Source: a virus. Taken from it: 33,337 bases of DNA. The stretch's first letter is position 1, and each line of letters starts with the position of its first letter. Under the pieces are notes generated by a model. It saw only the letters and a program-made list of their open reading frames with translations, was not told where the DNA came from and made no database searches. Below, one piece after another: positions 11,174 to 33,337 of the stretch. Both the position numbers and the translations under genes were made by a program. The stretch is taken from positions 1-33,337 of the IMG/VR virus record IMGVR_UViG_3300021185_004134; one strand, 5' to 3'.

Positions 11174-12703
11174 ATGGAAAAGCTAGAAAAATTTATGGCC
11201 ATCTTCGAGGGCCTAGACTGTGCCTACGGTACTTATCGTGTTTCAGGCGAGCCGAATGCAAAAGGCAAGAGCACTGGTCAGGCGCTCGTGGTACGCAAAG
11301 CGCCGACCAAGGACCTGTGGCAGCGCCACTTTGACGGCATAGACCCGTCACTAGGAATCATCCCAATACGCGCCGACAATAGCTGTACGTGGGGCGCGAT
11401 AGACATCGACCAGTACCCGCTAGACCTGCAGGCGCTGATCGAAAAGATTAAGAAGCTTGGCCTGCCGCTTGTTACCTTCCGCAGCAAGTCAGGTGGCGCG
11501 CACGTATACTGCTTTACGAAGACGCCAGTGCCTGCCGGTGATATGCAAAAGTATCTGACTGCATGCGGTGGCCTGCTCGGTGAGGCGGGGCGCGAGATAT
11601 TCCCGAAACAATCTGAAATCCTAGTCGAGCGTGGTGACACCGGCAACTACCTTAACCTGCCTTACTTTGGCGGTGAGAAGACCTTGCGCTACGCGCTTAA
11701 GGAAGACGGCAACAGCGCGACGCTTGACGAGTTTTTTGCTATCTACGAGGCCAACGTCCAAGACGCTTTGGTCACGCCTAAGCCTCCTGAGAAACCCGAT
11801 ACACCCGTGAAGGATGGGCCGCCATGCCTGCAGGCTCTCTGCTCGCAGGGCTTTCCTGAAGGCTCACGGAATAACGGAATGTTCAGCGTCGGCATCTACC
11901 TCAAGAAAGCTTTTCCTACCGGATGGGAAGACAAGCTGATGGAGTACAATCAAAAGTATTTTAATCCGCCCCTTGCTTTGCAGGAAATCTTGCTCATTCA
12001 GAAGCAGCTCGAGAAAAAGGAATACCGCTACAAGTGCAAGGATGACCCCATCAAATCATTCTGCAACCCTGCTTTGTGCAGGCAGCGCAAGCACGGAATT
12101 GGGGGTGATGGACCTGACAGCCCGCAGCTCACCTCACTAAGCAAGTACGCGAGCGAGCCGCCACTGTGGTTCCTAGACGTGAACGGGAAACGCATAGAGC
12201 TTGAGACCGAGAGTCTGTTTAATCAGATGTTTTTTCAGAAGGCGTGCATGGAGCGGCTGAACGTACTGCCGCCGACAGTTAAAAAGCCTGACTGGGAGGC
12301 CCTTATCAACGAGCTGCTGAGTGAGATGGTCGAGATGCAGGCCATCACCGAGGCGAGCGAAGACACCACAATCACCGGCCGGTTCGCTGATTTGGTTGAA
12401 GAGTTTACGACTCACCTGCAGCAGGCTATGGACCGCGACGAGATTCTCATGGGCCGAGTGTGGACTGATGAAGCAAACGGTGTTTCTTATCTACGGATCA
12501 AGGACCTCGAAGCGCATTTGAAGCGCAACAACTTCGGCGCGCTGTCGGCGCCTAAAATGGCGCAGCGGTTACGCGAGTTGGGTGGCGAGCCTAGCAGCAT
12601 AAACCTTAAAGGCCGCACGGCTCGGGTATGGAAGCTGCCTGTGTTTGATAAGCAGGACTCACCTTTCGATACGCCGACGAGCGACGATTCGGTGCCGTTC
12701 TAA
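11174..12703 (+). CDS. archaeo-eukaryotic-type (AEP) DNA primase, 509 aa
   Basis: The N-terminal ~200 residues match AEP primases of the kind often labelled TOTE conflict-system primase: CTWGAIDIDQYP supplies the metal-binding Asp77/Asp79 pair, and FRSKSGGAHVYCF supplies the S-x-x-x-H motif with His110. A middle domain (GFPEGSRNNGMFSVGIYLKK) resembles the primase C-terminal helical domain, and a Cys cluster (CKDDPIKSFCNPALC) near residues 290-306 may bind zinc. The C-terminal ~150 residues include a winged-helix-like segment. It synthesises primers for the polymerase two genes downstream. AGAAAGAAG precedes the ATG; the stop overlaps the helicase ATG by one base. Confidence 0.85.
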   Translation: MEKLEKFMAIFEGLDCAYGTYRVSGEPNAKGKSTGQALVVRKAPTKDLWQRHFDGIDPSLGIIPIRADNSCTWGAIDIDQYPLDLQALIEKIKKLGLPLVTFRSKSGGAHVYCFTKTPVPAGDMQKYLTACGGLLGEAGREIFPKQSEILVERGDTGNYLNLPYFGGEKTLRYALKEDGNSATLDEFFAIYEANVQDALVTPKPPEKPDTPVKDGPPCLQALCSQGFPEGSRNNGMFSVGIYLKKAFPTGWEDKLMEYNQKYFNPPLALQEILLIQKQLEKKEYRYKCKDDPIKSFCNPALCRQRKHGIGGDGPDSPQLTSLSKYASEPPLWFLDVNGKRIELETESLFNQMFFQKACMERLNVLPPTVKKPDWEALINELLSEMVEMQAITEASEDTTITGRFADLVEEFTTHLQQAMDRDEILMGRVWTDEANGVSYLRIKDLEAHLKRNNFGALSAPKMAQRLRELGGEPSSINLKGRTARVWKLPVFDKQDSPFDTPTSDDSVPF

Positions 12704-17605: not shown

Positions 17606-17630
17606 CCTGTTGATTTAGTTAATTAAAATA

Positions 17631-17713
17631 AGTAGTAAAAAGTAGTTGACGGTAGTATTTAATTCGTGAGAAGATTCAGTTGTCGGGTTGGCCGACGCAT
17701 ACAGGAGAAAGAC
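17631..17713 (+). promoter_or_regulatory. promoter-hairpin-RBS cassette A
   Basis: Block AGTAGTAAAAAGTAGTTG (17631-17648) contains the -35 TTGACG (17646-17651). An 18-bp spacer leads to a weak -10 GAAGAT (17670-17675). Six bases later a stem GTCGG / CCGAC (17682-17686 and 17692-17696) encloses the loop GTTGG, followed by ATACAGGAGA and ATG 17714. From the hairpin onward it is almost identical to cassette D. Confidence 0.85.
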
Positions 17714-17983
17714 ATGACAGACTTCAACAACATCGCAGCAATCAACGCTACTGTACTCAAGAATGGTAAAGCCAAGATGGTAGCAATCATGAATGACGGT
17801 TCTGAAGTGATCGTCCGCAAGGTTAGTGCGGCAAAAGCCTACGCTAACATTTACGACCATGAGGTAAATGGCAACGCAGGTGGTTTGGCTTCGTACATTA
17901 CAATCAACGCCAAGCCCGGCGTTCCAAGCCGAGGGGGGGACAACGCTGCCCCTGTTAAGTCAATCAAAATAACTTACCTCTAA
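17714..17983 (+). CDS. small unknown cassette protein, 89 aa
   Basis: ATG 17714 is fixed by the ATACAGGAGA leader eight bases upstream. The product looks like a small alpha/beta protein: MVAIMNDGSEVIVRKVSA strands, a helix, and a Gly-rich loop before a final IKITYL strand. No family recognised. First gene of cassette A; the following gene carries the same ribosome binding leader behind a UUCG hairpin. Confidence 0.75.
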   Translation: MTDFNNIAAINATVLKNGKAKMVAIMNDGSEVIVRKVSAAKAYANIYDHEVNGNAGGLASYITINAKPGVPSRGGDNAAPVKSIKITYL

Positions 17984-17991
17984 ACCCAACC

Positions 17992-18028
17992 GGCCCCTTC
18001 GGGGGCCAACCCCATACAGGAGAAAGAC
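17992..18028 (+). promoter_or_regulatory. UUCG-capped hairpin leader with ATACAGGAG ribosome binding site
   Basis: Stem GGCCCC / GGGGCC (17992-17997 and 18002-18007) with a TTCG tetraloop is followed by AACCCC-ATACAGGAGA and ATG 18029. There is no -35/-10 and no T-run after the stem, so this is more likely a processing or stability element between two cistrons than a terminator. Confidence 0.75.
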
Positions 18029-18244
18029 ATGAAAGCGACTATAAAGAATCTAAACGCCTACATACAGGCACGCTATTCTGATCTTGGCCTTGAATTTGTT
18101 AAAGGGGAAGGCTACTTTTATTTCGTCGGCAACGACGACCTTTACGTCGAGTCGATCATGGTCTACGCGCTCAATCGTTGTGGCCACGCCAAGTGGTGCG
18201 AAATGATCGACGGACAAATTTATCAAGCTTTATTAAACAAGTAA
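18029..18244 (+). CDS. small unknown cassette protein, 71 aa
   Basis: The start follows the shared ATACAGGAGAAAGAC leader. The product has a basic N-terminal helix (IKNLNAYIQARYSDLG), a YFYFVGNDDLYVES strand pair and a final helix with CGHAKWCEMIDG. No family recognised, and no obvious paralogue elsewhere in the window. Confidence 0.75.
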   Translation: MKATIKNLNAYIQARYSDLGLEFVKGEGYFYFVGNDDLYVESIMVYALNRCGHAKWCEMIDGQIYQALLNK

Positions 18245-18589: not shown

Positions 18590-18667
18590 TAAAAAGTAGT
18601 TGCGAGTGGTCTCATAATGTGAGACCATCTCTTTGTCGGATTGGCCGACACCATACAGGAGAAAGAC
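18586..18667 (+). promoter_or_regulatory. promoter-hairpin-RBS cassette B
   Basis: GTAGTAAAAAGTAGTTGC begins in the last codons of the preceding gene. -35 TTGCGA (18600-18605), 17 bp, -10 GACCAT (18623-18628), six bases, then stem GTCGG / CCGAC (18635-18639 and 18645-18649) with loop ATTGG, then ATACAGGAGA and ATG 18668. The spacer holds a perfect inverted repeat GGTCTCA-TAATG-TGAGACC (18608-18626) overlapping the -10, which may be an extra operator not found in the other copies. Confidence 0.85.
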
Positions 18668-19246
18668 ATGAAACTGACTAGAGAATTTTTTGTACCCGCT
18701 GAGTTCAAGGAAAAGATTGTTAAGTTCGATGGCGCCCTCGAGGTCTACATTGTTGAGAACGGTCCTAGCTACGTGGCCAAGGGCTTCAAAGGCAAAGCTG
18801 CCAAGCCTGCTTTCTATTACGATTTCAAGACTGCCGAGCGAATGGCTGAGTATATCGACGGCTTTTTTGCTGACTACGCCGAAATGGTTGAGTACAAGGC
18901 TAACGAAAAAGCAAAGGCCAAAGCTAAGAAAGCTGAGGCTGCCAAGAACCTTAAAGTCGGAGACATCTACTACAGCTCTTGGGGCTACGACCAGACTAAC
19001 ATTGACTTTTACAAGATTGTCGATGTTAAGGGCGCTAAAGCTACATTGGTTGAGATTGCTAAGTCATACTTAGACAGCGAGTTTGCTTACGAAGACAAGG
19101 TTGTGCCTGCTCCTAACGTCATTGTAGGTAAGCCCATGAACAAGATCGTTGACCAGTTCGGCAACTTCAACATTGCAAGCTACGCCGGTGCCTATAAATG
19201 GAACGGTGAGCCTAAATCTCAAACTGCTTCGGGGTACGGACACTAA
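18668..19246 (+). CDS. cassette protein with WGYDQTN domain, 192 aa
   Basis: ATG 18668 follows the cassette leader. After ~75 residues of alpha/beta sequence comes a basic helix (KAKAKKAEAAKNL), then a domain that begins LKVGDIYYSSWGYDQTNIDF (about residues 97-116). This WGYDQTN motif recurs in phage and plasmid proteins of unknown function (recalled). The basic helix followed by a compact strand-rich module suggests interaction with nucleic acid or a host protein. It leads a run of small overlapping genes. Role unknown. Confidence 0.75.
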   Translation: MKLTREFFVPAEFKEKIVKFDGALEVYIVENGPSYVAKGFKGKAAKPAFYYDFKTAERMAEYIDGFFADYAEMVEYKANEKAKAKAKKAEAAKNLKVGDIYYSSWGYDQTNIDFYKIVDVKGAKATLVEIAKSYLDSEFAYEDKVVPAPNVIVGKPMNKIVDQFGNFNIASYAGAYKWNGEPKSQTASGYGH

Positions 19247-21519: not shown

Positions 21520-21595
21520 TCAACTGGTGGTCGAAGCGGTGATGGTTGCTCAGCAACTTATCGACGAAGTTCACGACACTGTGGATGAGCGCTGA
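21434..21595 (+). CDS. small unknown protein, 53 aa
   Basis: ATG 21434 follows CTGGAG; the frame closes with TGA at 21595, one base before the next ATG. The product begins MDEEKAILALVSTVMMHALI and continues as a helical chain ending HDTVDER. It overlaps the HTH gene by 86 bases in another frame. Good ribosome binding site and one-base coupling to the hydrolase support it. Confidence 0.55.
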   Translation: MDEEKAILALVSTVMMHALIGKSKHATTDQLVVEAVMVAQQLIDEVHDTVDER

Positions 21596-22032
21596 TGTTT
21601 ACCTCAGCCCTAGCCTGCCTAGCACTGACCATTTACCACGAAGCACGCAACCAAGACCTGCAGGGGCAGGTCGCCGTCGCACAGGTCGTCCTCGAGCGCA
21701 AATACGACTCACGTTTCCCTGATACCGTCTGCGGCGTCGTCACCGACGGCGGCGAGGTCCGCAACCGCTGCGCCTTCTCGTTCTACTGCGACGGCCAGTC
21801 CGATAAACCTCAAGACGAGCGCGCCTACACTGTAGCGCGGTGGATCGCCTCAGGCGTCCTCAGCGGCGTTGTGAAGGACGTTACGGGTTACGCGACCCAT
21901 TATCATGCCTACTACGTCCGGCCCGACTGGGCGCTTACAATGCGTCCTACGGCCGTTATCGGCGATCATATATTCTACCGAGAGGGTGCAGGCGCCGAGG
22001 ACCACGGGCCTTATGTCGGGTGGGAAAAATGA
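21595..22032 (+). CDS. SleB-like cell wall hydrolase (Hydrolase_2), 145 aa
   Basis: The motif series of the SleB/Hydrolase_2 family is visible: LTIYHEARNQDLQGQVAVAQ with the likely catalytic Glu16, FPDTVCGVV, CAFSFYCDGQSD, and ATHYHAYYVRPDW followed by GDHIFYR. The family cleaves peptidoglycan glycan strands. The first residues are hydrophobic but too short for a normal signal peptide, so export may need a holin or an accessory protein. It is probably the endolysin, although no holin was recognised beside it. It starts on the last base of the preceding stop. Confidence 0.85.
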   Translation: MFTSALACLALTIYHEARNQDLQGQVAVAQVVLERKYDSRFPDTVCGVVTDGGEVRNRCAFSFYCDGQSDKPQDERAYTVARWIASGVLSGVVKDVTGYATHYHAYYVRPDWALTMRPTAVIGDHIFYREGAGAEDHGPYVGWEK

Positions 22033-22247
22033 ATAAACCAATTCAAGAAGAGTTCTGGTTTGATATGCCGGAATTTGTGCAAGAAAAGCAGGCCCCGTAC
22101 CTCGAGCTTAAGGTACGGTTTGCAGACCAAGAAGCTCTCGAGGAGTTTTCCAAATTGATCGGCCAAAAGCTCACGGTTAAGACCAAGTCTATCTGGCACC
22201 CAGAGCTTGTTAGAGGGCTTAACGGAGGCAAGAGGTATGTTGAGTAA
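22029..22247 (+). CDS. small MPEFVQ-motif protein, 72 aa, linked to the glycosyltransferase
   Basis: ATG 22029 overlaps the hydrolase stop (ATGA). The product contains FWFDMPEFVQEKQAPYLELK and a LTVKTKSIWHPE ending. This motif pair recurs in phages next to glycosyltransferases or as a C-terminal add-on of other proteins (recollection, not verified). It overlaps the glycosyltransferase by 11 bases, so the two probably act together. Mechanism unknown. Confidence 0.65.
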   Translation: MNKPIQEEFWFDMPEFVQEKQAPYLELKVRFADQEALEEFSKLIGQKLTVKTKSIWHPELVRGLNGGKRYVE

Positions 22248-23136
22248 CCGTTACCCCGTTTACGTCGTCAGCAAGGGCAGGGCGCATTCTAGGCAGACTG
22301 TCAAAGCTCTTGAGCGGATGTCTGTAGAATACAGCGTGGTTGTCGAACAGGCTGAGCTTGAGGAGTACGCTCAGCACATTGATCGGCGCAGGCTGTTGGT
22401 GCTGCCGGAGCGATACAGGGCGGAGTATGAGCTGTGTGACGAGCTTGGCTTTACGAGGTCCACGGGCCCCGGCCCTGCCAGAAACTTTGTATGGGACCAC
22501 GCTACCGCTCTAGGCGTTAAACGCCACTGGGTCATGGATGACAACCTCGACGATTTTCATCGCTTAAATCGCAACATGAAGGTCCCAGTGCGGTCCCCTG
22601 CTACCCTTCGAGCGTCAGAGGATTTTGTCGACAGATTCGCCAACGTGCCAGTGGCCGGTATGAATTACTATTCGTTCTGCAAGAGCACTGACGGCGTGCC
22701 GCCGTTCGTGGCCAACACTCGAATCTATTCCTGCCTGCTGATTGAGAATGCTGCACCGTACAGGTGGCGAGGACGGTACAACGAGGATACCGATCTCAGC
22801 CTGAGAGTTCTCAAGGATGGCCTGTGTACGATCCAGTTCAATGCTTTCCTGTGTGGCAAGACAACCACGCAACGGATGAAGGGAGGCAACACAAAAGAAT
22901 TCTACGCAGGTGAAGGCACCTTGCCTAAATCTCAGATGATCGTGGACCTGCACCCTGACGTATCCAAGGTTGTTTGGCGCTTCAACCGATGGCACCACCA
23001 CGTCGACTACCGGCCATTTAAAAACAATAAGCTTATCTACCGAGACGACTATCAGAAGGTGGACCGAAATAACGAGTACGGCATGCGCCTTGTTGATTAC
23101 GGGATGAAAGCGCCAAAAGACTCCGGACGGCAGTAG
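22237..23136 (+). CDS. TAGT-like glycosyltransferase (candidate DNA base modification), 299 aa
   Basis: ATG 22237 is preceded by GGAGG. The protein matches the TET-associated glycosyltransferase (TAGT) pattern: RYPVYVVSKGRAHSRQT at the N-terminus, GPGPARNF (about 77-84), a WVMDDNLDDF stretch with the acidic sugar-nucleotide/metal site (Asp101, Asp102), and EDTDLSLR (about 183-190). Family members attach sugars to hydroxymethylated cytosines made by phage TET/JBP dioxygenases. No TET-type dioxygenase is seen in this window, so the acceptor base is unknown or the partner lies outside. DNA hypermodification to resist restriction is the most likely role, by inference. Confidence 0.75.
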   Translation: MLSNRYPVYVVSKGRAHSRQTVKALERMSVEYSVVVEQAELEEYAQHIDRRRLLVLPERYRAEYELCDELGFTRSTGPGPARNFVWDHATALGVKRHWVMDDNLDDFHRLNRNMKVPVRSPATLRASEDFVDRFANVPVAGMNYYSFCKSTDGVPPFVANTRIYSCLLIENAAPYRWRGRYNEDTDLSLRVLKDGLCTIQFNAFLCGKTTTQRMKGGNTKEFYAGEGTLPKSQMIVDLHPDVSKVVWRFNRWHHHVDYRPFKNNKLIYRDDYQKVDRNNEYGMRLVDYGMKAPKDSGRQ

Positions 23137-23257: not shown

Positions 23258-23332
23258 TTGTTTTCTAGGATTAGATCGACTAAGCTGCAGTTGTTGTCAG
23301 GGAATGGCCCTGACCGGATACAGGAGACAGAC
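23258..23332 (+). promoter_or_regulatory. promoter-hairpin-RBS cassette E
   Basis: -35 TTGTTT (23258-23263), 17 bp, -10 TAAGCT (23281-23286), nine bases, then stem GTCAGGG / CCCTGAC (23296-23302 and 23308-23314) with loop AATGG, then GGATACAGGAGA and ATG 23333. Relative to cassette C the stem differs by one compensated pair (G-C to A-T). This is the most divergent promoter of the set; the AT-rich upstream block is degenerate. Confidence 0.75.
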
Positions 23333-24061
23333 ATGCTAAACATCATCGCCAACGCTGAGTACCGTCACGGTGCAGAGAACTCAACTCCTAAGTCTTACCA
23401 GAAGAAAGCACAGAAGCTCTTCGCTGAGCTTGGCGAGAATGTCCAAATCGTCAAAATCCAGTGCAACTACAGCAGCAGCAAGTATCACCTGTTCGCCTTC
23501 GGTGAGGACGTGAGCAACCCCCTCTACCGACAGCAGGGCCGAATCGAGATCAGCGAGAAACAGCGCGCTCTCCACGGACCTGACTACAGGGACGGTGCCG
23601 ATCACTTCTACGCCGTTTGGTCAGACTGGCAAGACGGCACTGGCTACACTGAGTACCAAGCTCAGGCCAAGGCGGCCATCGAGAAGCACCGTAAAACTCA
23701 AGAGGCCAAGGCAGCTAAAGCCGAGCCAGTGGAGCAGGTGCAGTTCTGGGCCAACCAAGCTTGGAGAGATGGGATCGTCTTAGCGACTATCGAGGACCGC
23801 GCCCTGATCGCCTACCGTATGCCTGCCGGTGCTGTCTACATGGTCATAGTGGCTCACGACCCAGACACAGGGGCCGCTAAGCGCCAGTGGGAGTGCGGCA
23901 GCAGCTACGTCAAGGGTTACCGCTACGGCAGCTACAAATCGATCTCAGCCAACGCCCTGAAGAAGAATGCCAAGTGGCTTGCTGAGGTGGTCAAGGTCGA
24001 GGGCTTTGAAGATGGGAACGTGGACCAAGGACTTGAATATCTGGGCGAGGACCTAGAGTAA
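23333..24061 (+). CDS. unknown cassette protein, 242 aa
   Basis: The start follows the cassette leader. The N-terminal ~115 residues are alpha/beta with aromatic clusters (YHLFAFGEDVSNPLYRQQG, HFYAVWSDWQDGTGYTEYQ). A Lys/Ala-rich helix follows, and the C-terminal ~90 residues include QAWRDGIVLATIEDRALIAY and a basic patch. Base composition is a bit higher in GC than flanking small genes. No known family or catalytic motif was found. It is the only gene of its transcription unit before cassette C. Confidence 0.75.
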   Translation: MLNIIANAEYRHGAENSTPKSYQKKAQKLFAELGENVQIVKIQCNYSSSKYHLFAFGEDVSNPLYRQQGRIEISEKQRALHGPDYRDGADHFYAVWSDWQDGTGYTEYQAQAKAAIEKHRKTQEAKAAKAEPVEQVQFWANQAWRDGIVLATIEDRALIAYRMPAGAVYMVIVAHDPDTGAAKRQWECGSSYVKGYRYGSYKSISANALKKNAKWLAEVVKVEGFEDGNVDQGLEYLGEDLE

Positions 24062-24088: not shown

Positions 24089-24177
24089 GTAGTAAAAAGT
24101 AGTTGCAGCCCTCCCTGATATCAATTACGATGCAGTTGTTGTCGGGGAATGGCCCCGACCGGATACAGGAGAAAGAC
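24089..24177 (+). promoter_or_regulatory. promoter-hairpin-RBS cassette C
   Basis: GTAGTAAAAAGTAGTTGC (24089-24106), -35 TTGCAG (24103-24108), 17 bp, -10 TACGAT (24126-24131), nine bases, stem GTCGGGG / CCCCGAC (24141-24147 and 24153-24159) with loop AATGG, then GGATACAGGAGA and ATG 24178. Best plus-strand -10 of the set. Confidence 0.85.
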
Positions 24178-24438
24178 ATGAGCAAAATCACTAACTGGGA
24201 AATCAAGAGCTACCCCGAGCTAAAGGGAGATTTCAACGGCCCTACTGGATACGCACTAGGCGTTGCCAACGTGAAGGACGCTTGGGGTGAAGTTGAGATT
24301 GTCCCCGCTTGGATCAAAGTGGTGTTCGCCGACGATGCCGCCCACGTTATCCTGATTAACAAGAAAGGCGACTACAACGGCCTTTACCACATTGTCCCGC
24401 TTCCTGAAGAGGAAGCTATCGAAAGCATTCCACTCTAA
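24178..24438 (+). CDS. small unknown cassette protein, 86 aa
   Basis: The start follows the cassette leader. The product is strand-rich with a GPTGYALGVANVKDAWGEVE segment, KVVFADDAAHVILINKKGDY, and a short acidic tail. No family recognised. The second gene of this unit (24484) follows a UUCG-capped leader. Confidence 0.75.
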   Translation: MSKITNWEIKSYPELKGDFNGPTGYALGVANVKDAWGEVEIVPAWIKVVFADDAAHVILINKKGDYNGLYHIVPLPEEEAIESIPL

Positions 24439-24446
24439 ACTAACCA

Positions 24447-24483
24447 CGGCCCTTCGGGGCCGACCCCATACAGGAGAATGGCC
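24447..24483 (+). promoter_or_regulatory. UUCG-capped hairpin leader with ATACAGGAG ribosome binding site
   Basis: Stem CGGCCC / GGGCCG (24447-24452 and 24457-24462) with TTCG loop, then ACCCC-ATACAGGAGA before ATG 24484. Same arrangement as the leader at 17992 but a different stem. An upstream ATG at 24478 is only two bases from the ribosome binding site and is rejected as start. Confidence 0.75.
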
Positions 24484-24822
24484 ATGGCTCAAGTTAAATT
24501 CGGAATTACTTTTTCTCTCAACGACTACGCTTATGCCGAAGTCGATCAGTTCATCGAGTGTACAGGCAACATATCAGAGGAGAGCAATCTGCGTCAGCGT
24601 TACGTTGATTTTCTGAATGCTGTCCTAGCCAAAAAAGTAAAACCGTCAACACTGGTTGACGTGGATGTTCTCAATCTGTTTATTGGCGATTTAGACAACC
24701 GCGCTCATATCGATTACCTCGAGGATCACTGGAACGACGATCCTAGAATAACGGCAGGCGGCAAAATGTTCTGGGGCAGATGCAACAAGCTCCGAGCAAT
24801 ACATCAAGCCGCACTATCCTAA
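24484..24822 (+). CDS. small acidic cassette protein, 112 aa
   Basis: ATG 24484 has proper spacing to AGGAG. The product is acidic, with a strand-rich start (VKFGITFSLNDYAYAEVDQF), a helical middle and NRAHIDYLEDHWNDDPR, then a basic C-terminus. No family recognised. High acidity would fit a DNA-mimic or protein-binding inhibitor, which is speculation. Confidence 0.7.
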   Translation: MAQVKFGITFSLNDYAYAEVDQFIECTGNISEESNLRQRYVDFLNAVLAKKVKPSTLVDVDVLNLFIGDLDNRAHIDYLEDHWNDDPRITAGGKMFWGRCNKLRAIHQAALS

Positions 24823-24834
24823 GTAGAAATAAAT

Positions 24835-24915
24835 GTAAAAAAGTAGTTGACCGCACTATTTGATCCATGAGACGATTCAGTTGTCGGGTTGGCCGACGCA
24901 TACAGGAGAAAGACA
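24835..24915 (+). promoter_or_regulatory. promoter-hairpin-RBS cassette D
   Basis: GTAAAAAAGTAGTTGACC (24835-24852) includes the -35 TTGACC (24847-24852). An 18-bp spacer leads to -10 GACGAT (24871-24876), six bases, stem GTCGG / CCGAC (24883-24887 and 24893-24897) with loop GTTGG, then GCATACAGGAGA and ATG 24916. Nearly identical to cassette A from the -10 through the ribosome binding site. Confidence 0.85.
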
Positions 24916-30077: not shown

Positions 30078-33000
30078 ATGCCTAATTATACCGCTCGACA
30101 AATGCTGTCTCAACTTCCTCTTCGTCGTGCTGAGGGCGGCCCTGTTTACAGAGCATACGGGGGCCCAATGGGTGAGGATACTGAAGGGCGTTATATTGAC
30201 GAAGCGGCTCTTGAAAGGCAGATTCAAGAAGCGGTAGCTGCTCGGGCCGCTCAACAAGAAGCAGCCAGAGTAGCTCAACAAGAAGCGGCTAGAGTAGCGG
30301 CAGCCCAACAAGAAGCGGCCAGAATAGCAGCCGAGCAACAAGCAGCAGCGGAAGCAATGGCCGCACAACAGGCAGCGGAAAAAGCCGCAGCGGATAAGGC
30401 CGCAGCGGATAAGGCCGCAGCGGATAAGGCGGCAGCGGATAAGGCCGCAGCGGAACAAGCGGCGGCGCAAAAATCCGCAGCAGATAAGGCGGCAGCGGAT
30501 AAATCCGCAGCAGATAGGGCGGCCAGTCTTTTAGCAGCAGAAAAACGCGTCATGGGTGAGATGGACGCTGCGGGTTCTAATTGGAACGCGGCCCAAGCCT
30601 ATAACGAGATTTTAAAATCAGGCGTTACAACCGACGAAGCGTTGGCTGCCGGTGTAAAGCAGGAAAGTATTGATAGGATTTTTTCCACTGACCAACCGAT
30701 CACAACGGCGGACATTGCGACTACAAGTGGTCGCGCTTCGGCCTTTGACACCAGTGCGGCGTTTGCCGGACAGGACCTTGCTACCATTTCCCAGAACGCG
30801 CAGAACTACCTCGCAACGATGATGGAGGACGGGGTAATCTCCCCTGAAGAGCGACGTGAAACCCAAGCCTTTGCAATAGAGCAGGGCGTTACTTTTCAGG
30901 ACATGGAGGCAGCGGGCGTAGACCCCAATATCCTGTTTGACACTAGCGCAGCGGATGCACGCAGGGCGGCAGCGGAAAAGGCGGCAGCGGAAAAGGCGGC
31001 AGCGGATAAAGCGGCAGCGGATAAAGCGGCAGCGGATAAAGCAGCGGCGGATAAAGCAGCAGCGGATAAGGCGGCAGCGGAATCGGCAGCAGCAGCTAAA
31101 GCGGCGGCGGAAAAGGCAGCAGCGGATAAAGCAAATGCGGATGCGGCAGCAGCAGCTAAAGCGGCAGCGGAAAAAGCAGCGGCGGATAAAGCCGCAGCGG
31201 ATAAGGCGGCAGCGGATAAGGCGGCAGCGGATAAGGCAATAGCGGATAAAGCAGCAGCGGATAAAGCAGCAGCGGATAAGGCGGCAGCGGATAAAGCGGC
31301 AGCGGATAAAGCGGCGGCGGATAAGGCAGCGGCGGATAAAGCACTATCAGACGAAGAAAGGGCGGCAGCGGCAGCGGCAGCAGCGGATGCAGCAACCAAA
31401 GCGGCAGCGGACAAGGCGGCAGCGGAATCTAAAGCTTTTGACGATAGGGTAGCCGCAGAAGTAGCTAGGTTATTAGGAGAGGCAGAAGCCGCTAGGCTCA
31501 AGGCTTTAGCAGAGAAGATGGGGGCCGCAGCCACAGGCGTGGACGTCAACAATGTTGCAGAAACTGTAGACGAAGTAACAACAGAGGACATTGTCAGCGT
31601 GGTTTCTGACAACGACTTAACTGACCTTGTGTTAGATAACACACCATCTACTACAGTTATTGAGGGCACCACAACAACCCCTGTCGACACCACTGCCGCT
31701 ACAGCGGTAGATACTGGAATAAATGATTTCCTAGAAACGTATGTCGCCCCTACGGCAACCGTATTCCCAACCTACACGGCAGACACGGTGTACCAACCCC
31801 TGCCTGACCCAACCCCTATTTACGCTGAGGGCGAAACGGCGCTAGACACGGAGTTCAGGGAAAGCGCTCCGAGAACCGCTACTTACAACCCTCAAGGCGC
31901 TTTTACAGGATATGATTACACTACAGCGGCCAAGCTCATGCCTGCCACTGGATCGGGAATGAGTTGGACTCCTCCGTCGGTCACTAGCCGCCCGCGTCAA
32001 CTCTTAAGCTCTGCAGCTAGTATGCCCGGCCTATCTGCTTCACAGCGATTTGCCCGCGCCAGACAAGGCCAACAAGCTACGCTAATGGGTGCCTTCAACG
32101 ACACCGGCGCAAAAAGGAACTCGGCCAACTACTACGACTGGATGAATCAAATCCGTTCAGGCATGTTTAACAACTCAGCAGGACAGTTTGACAATCAGCT
32201 ATTCCTAAATGCCTTCAACCCGTGGGCCGCGAGCCAAACTTCAGGCGCGGGCACTACCACAACCGGACAAGCTCTAGCAGCGGCGGACCCTTACACGGTT
32301 AAAGCGGTAGATTTAGAAAACTTCACGGGTTTTGATAACTTTAATGCTTACGGCGGCACGGAGGTAGACGGTGAAGGAAGGCCATTTGCGGGAGGAGGCT
32401 ACGTAAAAAAGCCTAGGGGGTTCGCGGACGGTGGTCCTGCGAACTCGATGACGGCTGAAGAGCTTACTGCACAGTTAATGGCGATGGATTCAGCAGCCGC
32501 TGCCCAAGCACCACGGCCCACGGATCAAGTACAGACCGAAAGCCGCAGCATGCTTGATAACATACTCAGTGGAGCAAAACAAATGCCTTCCACTGTTTAC
32601 GAATACGGAAAGGACGTAGTGCAAAGCCAGAGCCCTTCTGCAAAATTGCTTACGGATATTTATAAAGTAGGCAAGACAATGCAGACCGGAGCAGCGGATG
32701 ATCCTGTGGGTTATGCGTTGGACATGGCACCTGTGACTGGCGAAATACGTTCAGGCATGGACGTAGAGAAGTTCTCTGATCTTGCCAACGAGGCCCGCGC
32801 TGCGGGGGACACGGAAGCTGCTAAGATGTACGAGCAGCTAGTCACGATGTCCATGGCGGGTGCAGCACCGGGACTTGGAATATTAGCAAGAGGCGCTAAG
32901 CGCACTGCAAAAGCGGGCGCGGAAGCAGCAACACAATCAGCTAAGATGTTGGATGAGATAGCTCCGGTCGCAACCAAAGCGCCAGAAGCCCCTACAGTCT

Positions 33001-33337
33001 ACCCTGCTGAAAAATTAAGAGCGAACCCTGTTGTAGCAAACGATCCGGTTGCTGTTCGTTTTAACGAGCAGATAGCCGCTGACCCTCAGGCTGCGATTGA
33101 GCAATATAAGCTTATCCCTAAGACTAAAGGCGGTAAGATTTTAAATTCCGACCTTTGGCGCGAGTTGAGCCCTGACTATCTTGCGGACCGTTCCCTTGCC
33201 CAGAGCGTGCATCAACCTGCAAGCGAGATGAATAAACTGCTGTATCAGCAGCGTCTTGCTGAAGACATGGGTAAAGAAGGCGTTTGGGTATTCACTGGCG
33301 GAGGCGCGGCCTCAGGTAAATCTGCCGGTCTATCGGA
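30078..33337 (+). CDS. giant polyvalent-type protein with (K/D)AAA repeats and a zeta-toxin-like P-loop (3' partial)
   Basis: ATG 30078 opens a frame with no stop to the window end (at least 1086 codons). After a short N-terminus with the GGPVYRAYGG motif there are two Ala-rich helical repeat blocks (DKAAADKAAA), a Thr/Pro-rich middle, and a second glycine motif GGGYVKKPRGFADGG near residue 775. From about residue 1015 the text resembles zeta-toxin/kinase-type proteins: LWRELSPDYLADRSLAQSVH, PASEMNKLLY, then FTGGGAASGKSAG with Lys1081 in the Walker A. Large multidomain phage proteins carrying such domains are called polyvalent proteins and are thought to be virion-delivered. The C-terminal part lies outside the window. 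Confidence 0.8.
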   Translation, partial: MPNYTARQMLSQLPLRRAEGGPVYRAYGGPMGEDTEGRYIDEAALERQIQEAVAARAAQQEAARVAQQEAARVAAAQQEAARIAAEQQAAAEAMAAQQAAEKAAADKAAADKAAADKAAADKAAAEQAAAQKSAADKAAADKSAADRAASLLAAEKRVMGEMDAAGSNWNAAQAYNEILKSGVTTDEALAAGVKQESIDRIFSTDQPITTADIATTSGRASAFDTSAAFAGQDLATISQNAQNYLATMMEDGVISPEERRETQAFAIEQGVTFQDMEAAGVDPNILFDTSAADARRAAAEKAAAEKAAADKAAADKAAADKAAADKAAADKAAAESAAAAKAAAEKAAADKANADAAAAAKAAAEKAAADKAAADKAAADKAAADKAIADKAAADKAAADKAAADKAAADKAAADKAAADKALSDEERAAAAAAAADAATKAAADKAAAESKAFDDRVAAEVARLLGEAEAARLKALAEKMGAAATGVDVNNVAETVDEVTTEDIVSVVSDNDLTDLVLDNTPSTTVIEGTTTTPVDTTAATAVDTGINDFLETYVAPTATVFPTYTADTVYQPLPDPTPIYAEGETALDTEFRESAPRTATYNPQGAFTGYDYTTAAKLMPATGSGMSWTPPSVTSRPRQLLSSAASMPGLSASQRFARARQGQQATLMGAFNDTGAKRNSANYYDWMNQIRSGMFNNSAGQFDNQLFLNAFNPWAASQTSGAGTTTTGQALAAADPYTVKAVDLENFTGFDNFNAYGGTEVDGEGRPFAGGGYVKKPRGFADGGPANSMTAEELTAQLMAMDSAAAAQAPRPTDQVQTESRSMLDNILSGAKQMPSTVYEYGKDVVQSQSPSAKLLTDIYKVGKTMQTGAADDPVGYALDMAPVTGEIRSGMDVEKFSDLANEARAAGDTEAAKMYEQLVTMSMAGAAPGLGILARGAKRTAKAGAEAATQSAKMLDEIAPVATKAPEAPTVYPAEKLRANPVVANDPVAVRFNEQIAADPQAAIEQYKLIPKTKGGKILNSDLWRELSPDYLADRSLAQSVHQPASEMNKLLYQQRLAEDMGKEGVWVFTGGGAASGKSAGLS
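30240..30535 (+). repeat. Ala-rich repeat block 1 in the giant protein
   Basis: In-frame repeats first of QQEAARVA type and then of DKAAA type (15-bp unit GATAAGGCNGCAGCG). The segment encodes a long uninterrupted helix. The opposite strand is also open because of the repeat codons; those antisense frames are artefacts. Confidence 0.9.
30946..31440 (+). repeat. Ala-rich repeat block 2 in the giant protein
   Basis: More than 20 units of (D/E)KAAA, each 15 bp, with local variants (AAAAK, DKANA, DKAIA, DKALS). Codon choice within Ala varies (GCA, GCG, GCC), which shows the repeats are older than the 24-bp repeats at 2823. A single-helix rod or coiled coil of roughly 160 residues is expected. 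Confidence 0.92.

Follow-up and report, generated by a model that had tools for sequence, protein, structure and literature searches.

The question raised by this locus is what a phage glycosyltransferase of the TAGT family glycosylates when no enzyme preparing a hydroxylated base is encoded in its vicinity. To our knowledge, the known phage DNA glycosyltransferases require a base hydroxyl made beforehand (5hmC, 5hmU or 5-hydroxyC). The enzyme considered here is encoded in an incomplete linear virus contig of 33,337 bases, the whole of which was analysed and is referred to as the window. A widespread two-gene clade of TAGTs devoid of any recognisable hydroxyl-making enzyme would mean either that DNA is modified by a new chemistry or that the glycosyltransferase is directed towards a different target. 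The features on which the argument depends are as follows.

21595..22032, plus strand: cell-wall hydrolase (Hydrolase_2; PF07486, E = 8e-24), in the same operon and outside the module
22029..22247, plus strand: 72-aa MPEFVQ partner ORF, with 54 homologues, adjoining or fused to the TAGT in relatives
22065-22076, plus strand: MPEF of the partner
22179-22202, plus strand: KTKSIWHP of the partner
22237..22247, plus strand: 11-nt overlap between the partner stop and the TAGT start (ATGTTGAGTAA), read from the sequence
22237..23136, plus strand: TAGT-family glycosyltransferase, 299 aa from ATG 22237 (PF20691, phrog_842, 47-sequence alignment)
22465..22485, plus strand: GPGPARN motif, TAGT residues 77-83, with G77, A81, R82 and N83 invariant (47 homologues)
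22537..22545, plus strand: DDN, TAGT residues 101-103, invariant columns
22783..22794, plus strand: EDTD, TAGT residues 183-186, with E183 and D184 invariant, T185 and D186 almost so
22987..22998, plus strand: RWHH motif, TAGT residues 251-254, from the alignment; RIHH in most ParB-coupled TAGTs

The window enzyme belongs to the TAGT (PF20691) family, of the GT-A type. The PF20691 profile is matched over its entire length (1-205/205) with E = 3.5e-50 and 171.2 bits, against a curated cut-off of 27.5, and phrog_842 is matched with E = 1.5e-52. The assignment proposed by the initial annotation thus stands, since GPGPARN, DDN and EDTD are all present and their core residues are invariant; across 47 diverse homologues, R82, N83, D101, D102, N103, E183 and D184 show no variation, and both the DD and ED motifs of the active site are intact in the window protein. 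From what is known of the GT-A family, DDN is the probable DxD-type nucleotide-sugar/metal site and EDTD the probable catalytic-base motif of GT2-like enzymes. The start given by the ORF finder, TTG 22207, is probably not used; ATG 22237 is preferred because it matches the homologues and yields the 11-nt overlap with the 72-aa ORF. That the two genes might be chance or spurious ORFs was rejected on the grounds of the PF20691 match and of the invariant residues in both alignments. Searches of the PDB by sequence and of plasmids returned no match.

The partner protein, for its part, matches nothing in Pfam or NCBIfam and only weakly phrog_22103, while its residues W10, M13, P14, W56 and P58 are without variation across 54 homologues. 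Its start overlaps the stop of the hydrolase gene by 4 nt (ATGA), and its own overlap with the TAGT start is consistent with translational coupling of the two products. AlphaFold2 modelling of MPEFVQ alone gave one helix (residues 34-44; mean pLDDT 84, pTM 0.53) and no clear fold, and in the model of a fused homologue (L005) the partner region remained under pLDDT 60, with just three fused rows covering that region. It is plausible that MPEFVQ is a subunit that folds onto the glycosyltransferase, with which it would be in physical contact.

MPEFVQ and the TAGT are obligately paired. Depending on the search, the evidence was gathered from either side. When relatives were collected with the TAGT as query, all 84 loci examined proved to have an MPEFVQ ORF or domain upstream of the glycosyltransferase, in seven of them in the same reading frame. 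Taken together, both proteins occur at 180 of the 184 loci found by either protein, many of these loci overlapping or coming from the same contigs and so not amounting to 184 independent observations; the four exceptions, with the partner only, are contigs that stop directly after it. The 180 paired loci comprise 9 fusions, 150 loci with a gap under about 120 nt (median -10 nt across relatives) and 21 in which the partner stands further away, mostly owing to genes inserted in between. In Aeromonas phage 65 and Vibrio phages 1.124.O and 1.076.O, MPEFVQ forms the N-terminal part of a single protein. The possibility that MPEFVQ serves as a general partner of other enzymes was discarded, since a search with the partner profile led to a TAGT at every sufficiently long locus among the best 80 of 552 IMG/VR matches inspected; phage searches with MPEFVQ likewise returned TAGT phages only. 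The proposal that the 72-aa protein is a linked partner of the TAGT is therefore borne out by its universal occurrence in the clade and its fusion in some phages.

The genes inserted between partner and TAGT at some loci encode methyltransferases (Methyltransf_31; FkbM, E = 2.9e-16), a radical SAM protein (3.5e-20), a protein with a weak GT1-like match, and 355-aa proteins with no Pfam match; ParB-like ORFs occur at 21 MPEFVQ loci. The ParB-like ORFs and the scattered methyltransferase, radical-SAM and glycosyltransferase-like inserts are regarded as accessory; the inserted genes would suit an elaboration of the transferred sugar, but they are sporadic. In one contig associated with methanogens (L178:1541-2581), MPEFVQ and TAGT are separated by a radical SAM gene. 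Vibrio phage Kuja (L226:8596-11284) contains two TAGT paralogues in tandem, the first of which is extended at its N terminus, at the place expected for MPEFVQ; a comparable double protein may be represented by A0A6G6XN95 (890 aa), which ranked first among the viral structure matches.

With respect to genomic setting, the cell-wall hydrolase gene is not conserved beside the module in relatives, and a protein comparison of the window with phages 1.124.O, 1.076.O and henriette, covering about 98 kb of the 107-kb henriette genome, identified MPEFVQ and TAGT as the sole proteins common to all; a conserved third gene of the module was sought and none is shared by the four carriers. As nothing else is held in common by these unrelated carriers, the module is either self-sufficient or draws on something that every host possesses. 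In DSL-LC04 (61.5 kb, circular), which among annotated relatives is the closest to the window phage, no match to TAGT, TET or thymidylate synthase was found, so that the module looks like an accessory acquisition in the window phage. In Vibrio phage 1.076.O the module is placed among head genes, a position that was counted against a DNA-glycosylation reading.

Elsewhere in the window, several small genes are preceded by a repeated leader (17626-17726, 18004-18041, 18643-18680, 23275-23345, 24120-24190, 24458-24495 and 24827-24915), in which ATACAGGAGAAAGACATG comes after a short inverted repeat, for example GTCGGGTTGGCCGAC; its longer copies are 85-88% identical over 71-89 nt. None occurs upstream of the TAGT, and the leader might be a 5' UTR or expression module that these genes have in common. 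A primase with an archaeo-eukaryotic primase domain of the TOTE-conflict-system type (11174-12703) adjoins genes for a UvrD-like helicase and a family A DNA polymerase, and a big open-ended ORF (30078-33335) contains a histone H1-like HC2 low-complexity stretch.

The absence of precursor enzymes was examined with the profiles of TET/JBP (PF12851) and of the thymidylate-synthase family (PF00303), neither of which found a match in the window record. The earlier observation that no TET dioxygenase lies nearby is confirmed for these 33.3 kb; since the record is incomplete, an absence there means little by itself and the argument is carried by the relatives. All 36 carrier records were negative for PF12851, as were Kuja, POP12, PTm1, Aeh1 and those ParB-coupled phages that were scanned. 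The positive control, phage Nigel, gave a weak match (4.2e-8, below the curated cut-off), which indicates that the search can detect a TET/JBP-like domain with modest sensitivity; a scan of 398 genomes for a TET positive control yielded nothing.

PF00303, which detects gp42 of T6 at 1.7e-16, matched three of the 36 carrier records. These three, together with the strong matches in Aeh1, Kuja and PTm1, possess the Asn of thymidylate synthase and not the Asp of gp42. An enzyme of the Asn type could in principle be a dUMP hydroxymethylase, the residue alone not being decisive. No enzyme of the dCMP-hydroxymethylase type was found in the 36 carrier records scanned. Among complete genomes, Aeromonas phage 65 and Vibrio phage henriette contain only an Asn-type thymidylate synthase, and the near-complete Vibrio phages 1.124.O and 1.076.O contain no gene of the family. 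Tenacibaculum phage PTm1, an MPEFVQ-TAGT phage, possesses a second, very divergent thymidylate-synthase-family ORF (L235, about 123231-123866; E = 1.5e-10, with one stop in the match), possibly a pyrimidine hydroxymethylase. Table 4 of Petrov et al. 2010 (PMC2993671) has no gene 42 entry for Aeh1 or 65, and T4 relatives devoid of the whole gene-42 network were judged to be probably without major dCMP modification (Petrov et al., PMC2993671), a judgement that would speak against wholesale base replacement in these two phages.

These results bear directly on the classical pathway, according to which a TET/JBP enzyme or a pyrimidine hydroxymethylase would be encoded outside the 33-kb window and the TAGT would decorate the resulting 5hmC or 5hmU. 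The window is indeed a fragment, other TAGTs adjoin a hydroxymethylase (T6 gp42; MW202897), and PTm1 has its second, divergent ORF; against this, TET is absent from all carrier records scanned, phage 65 and henriette have Asn-type enzymes only, 1.124.O and 1.076.O have no gene of the family, and gene 42 is unlisted for Aeh1/65 (PMC2993671). The lack of known precursor enzymes in several complete and near-complete relatives makes a precursor encoded elsewhere in the phage unlikely for the clade. The suggestion of the initial annotation that a nucleotide pathway lying beyond the window provides the base is accordingly disfavoured, no TET or enzyme of the dCMP-hydroxymethylase type having been found in the relatives scanned, and the classical pathway as a whole appears quite improbable. 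Its two other suggestions, a different base modification and glycosylation of something else, are both still plausible.

A base-hydroxylating enzyme of a kind not recognised by these profiles, encoded by phage or host, might instead supply the hydroxyl. The Krischvirus SAP has glucosylated cytosines and no known hydroxymethylase (PMC13390438), so that an unrecognised oxygenating enzyme is conceivable, and some TAGTs are found together with radical SAM and methyltransferase genes. The latter genes are sporadic, however, and the four unrelated carriers share nothing beyond MPEFVQ-TAGT, which leaves this explanation unlikely.

A distant TAGT, that of the gut phage MT835491, led to a second group of TAGTs devoid of TET, in which the enzyme is coupled to a ParB-like protein. 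Carriers include Lactobacillus phages phi jlb1 and c5, the halovirus HHTV-2, Nocardia phage NTR1, a Porphyromonas phage and lambdoid phages of E. coli (vB_EcoS-683R6). The TAGT gene overlaps the end of the upstream ParB-like gene by 4-29 nt and terminase genes are usually next; neither TET nor thymidylate synthase was found in the five ParB-coupled records scanned for both families, including the complete 31.8-kb phage c5. The ParB-like partner possesses a PxYEP C-terminal domain, and in Vibrio phage pv27 just this C-terminal half remains, as a stand-alone protein upstream of the TAGT. The similar MPEF and IPxYE motifs suggested that MPEFVQ and this C-terminal domain might be homologous, an idea that hhalign did not support. 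In MT835491 a radical SAM gene adjoins the TAGT (L225:4327-6904).

The ParB-coupled glycosyltransferases are about 17-24% identical to that of the window. In the TAGT tree they form one supported monophyletic group, well separated from the T6 and MW202897 TAGTs, which are linked to a hydroxymethylase; their point of attachment falls within the MPEFVQ group, and owing to the very long branches there their exact place is unsure. Fusions to DNA methyltransferases are common among phage ParB-fold proteins, and the phosphorothioate system has a ParB-like component in DndB (PMC12704722); by analogy, the ParB coupling and the terminase neighbours may point, weakly, to DNA as the target. The pair also occurs in Rac-like prophages (L240:3217-4933), with a match in 1,572 of 5,426 complete E. 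coli genomes and at least 80% of the query pair present in 885 of the 5,426. The annotation of E. coli 266917_2 gives ynaK as an incomplete ParB gene, and the Rac prophage of K-12 MG1655 (L247:4878-5481) has retained only the first 254 nt (ynaK), with no TAGT in the stretch read. This sister pair renders the question of the target directly testable in E. coli.

Structural comparisons introduce a different possibility. The AF2 model of the homologue L005 has a predicted GT-A fold, with pLDDT mostly over 90 in the glycosyltransferase core; it aligns with GT-A enzymes at a VIA-align Z of about 14 and with TAGT proteins in BFVD at a TMt of up to 0.90. The closest PDB folds, ppGalNAc-T2, COLGALT1 and cellulose synthase, act on proteins or polysaccharides, which was counted against a DNA target, although GT-A folds are generic. 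The acceptor could hence be a protein, a tRNA or a cell-surface molecule of every host, modified for example for superinfection exclusion or takeover; a target already available in every host would explain why no phage-made acceptor is needed. The lack of any precursor enzyme, or of a shared partner enzyme besides MPEFVQ, agrees with such a target, as do the FkbM methyltransferase and the weak GT1-like match among the inserts. This alternative is serious because of these nearest folds and because DNA activity in the family is established only for members linked to a hydroxymethylase or TET. Yet DNA is the substrate of those members that have been characterised (T2/T6, PMC13216743), a membrane anchor was not apparent, and the sister clade is paired with a ParB-like protein beside terminase genes; a non-DNA target is regarded as less likely than DNA.

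The reading to which we give about even chances is that of a mobile, self-contained two-component phage glycosyltransferase, probably directed to DNA, the acceptor of which is not phage-made 5-hydroxymethylcytosine. The TAGT would be the GT-A catalytic subunit, using as expected donor a nucleotide sugar of the host such as UDP-glucose. MPEFVQ would be an obligate subunit, translationally coupled or fused, which probably folds onto the enzyme and helps to select or present the acceptor. The latter is most likely a nucleic acid, probably phage DNA modified before packaging, and the modification might act as a shield against host nucleases. The hydroxyl or amine that receives the sugar would not belong to 5-hydroxymethylcytosine produced by any phage TET or hydroxymethylase of a recognisable kind. 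A stricter form of this two-component reading, that MPEFVQ-TAGT directly glycosylates a canonical, non-hydroxylated position of DNA, e.g., the exocyclic amine of adenine or cytosine, by analogy with ParB-TAGT, is considered rather unlikely; if true, it would amount to a DNA chemistry dispensing with hydroxymethylated precursors, in which a small partner selects the target.

Compared with the known systems, the module occupies a separate position. A PF12851 match in the genome, which defines TET-linked DNA hypermodification, occurs in none of the carrier records scanned, the window record being incomplete; a gp42-type dCMP hydroxymethylase, which defines T-even HMC glucosylation, was likewise not found in the carriers scanned, which have either no thymidylate-synthase-family gene or one of the Asn type, the second, divergent ORF of PTm1 aside. 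Pyle et al., in 2024, reportedly described phage glycosyltransferases of the TAGT type associated with TET/5mYOX, with sugar-tailoring neighbours in some cases; they share the TAGT type with the MPEFVQ clade but differ in that no TET was found in any clade record scanned. The TAGTs of T2 and T6 act downstream of 5hmC made by gp42 and of an alpha-glucosyltransferase (PMC13216743, PMC2993671), and a solitary TAGT occurs in 288 of 753 glycosyltransferase-bearing phage genomes (PMC13216743). The statement of the initial annotation that TAGTs decorate hydroxymethylcytosine made by TET/JBP is thus incomplete with regard to T2/T6, which use gp42-made 5hmC, and to the solitary enzymes. That TAGTs occur alone was already known (PMC13216743); no description of an obligate MPEFVQ partner or of ParB-TAGT coupling was found in the open literature, most subscription papers lying outside the search.

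The beta-glucosyl-HMC-alpha-glucosyltransferase of T2/T6 resembles the window TAGT in its PF20691 domain, its GT-A type (PMC13216743) and its DD and ED motifs, but the two show no significant BLASTP similarity, and the T6 enzyme scores just 1.4e-10 against PF20691 versus 7e-46 to 1e-63 for the phage relatives of the window TAGT. Unlike the window gene, that of T6 lies beside gp42, its product acts on already glucosylated 5hmC, and neither an MPEFVQ partner nor RWHH is seen. The TAGT of MW202897 also sits beside a hydroxymethylase, and no neighbours of this TAGT were found in IMG/VR. The ParB-coupled TAGTs are closer in organization, being solitary, overlapped with a small upstream partner and, for most of them, provided with RIHH; they differ by a ParB-like partner not detectably homologous to MPEFVQ. 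The direct orthologues are the TAGTs of Aeromonas phages 65, Aeh1 and phiAS5 and of the Vibrio phages, about 55-68% identical and fused to MPEFVQ where examined. RefSeq uses the name beta-glucosyl-HMC-alpha-glucosyltransferase for NC_015251, NC_005260, NC_019449, NC_021340, NC_024206 and others, in which no HMC-making enzyme was detected; for genes of the MPEFVQ clade this name is unsupported and was probably propagated from T2/T6.
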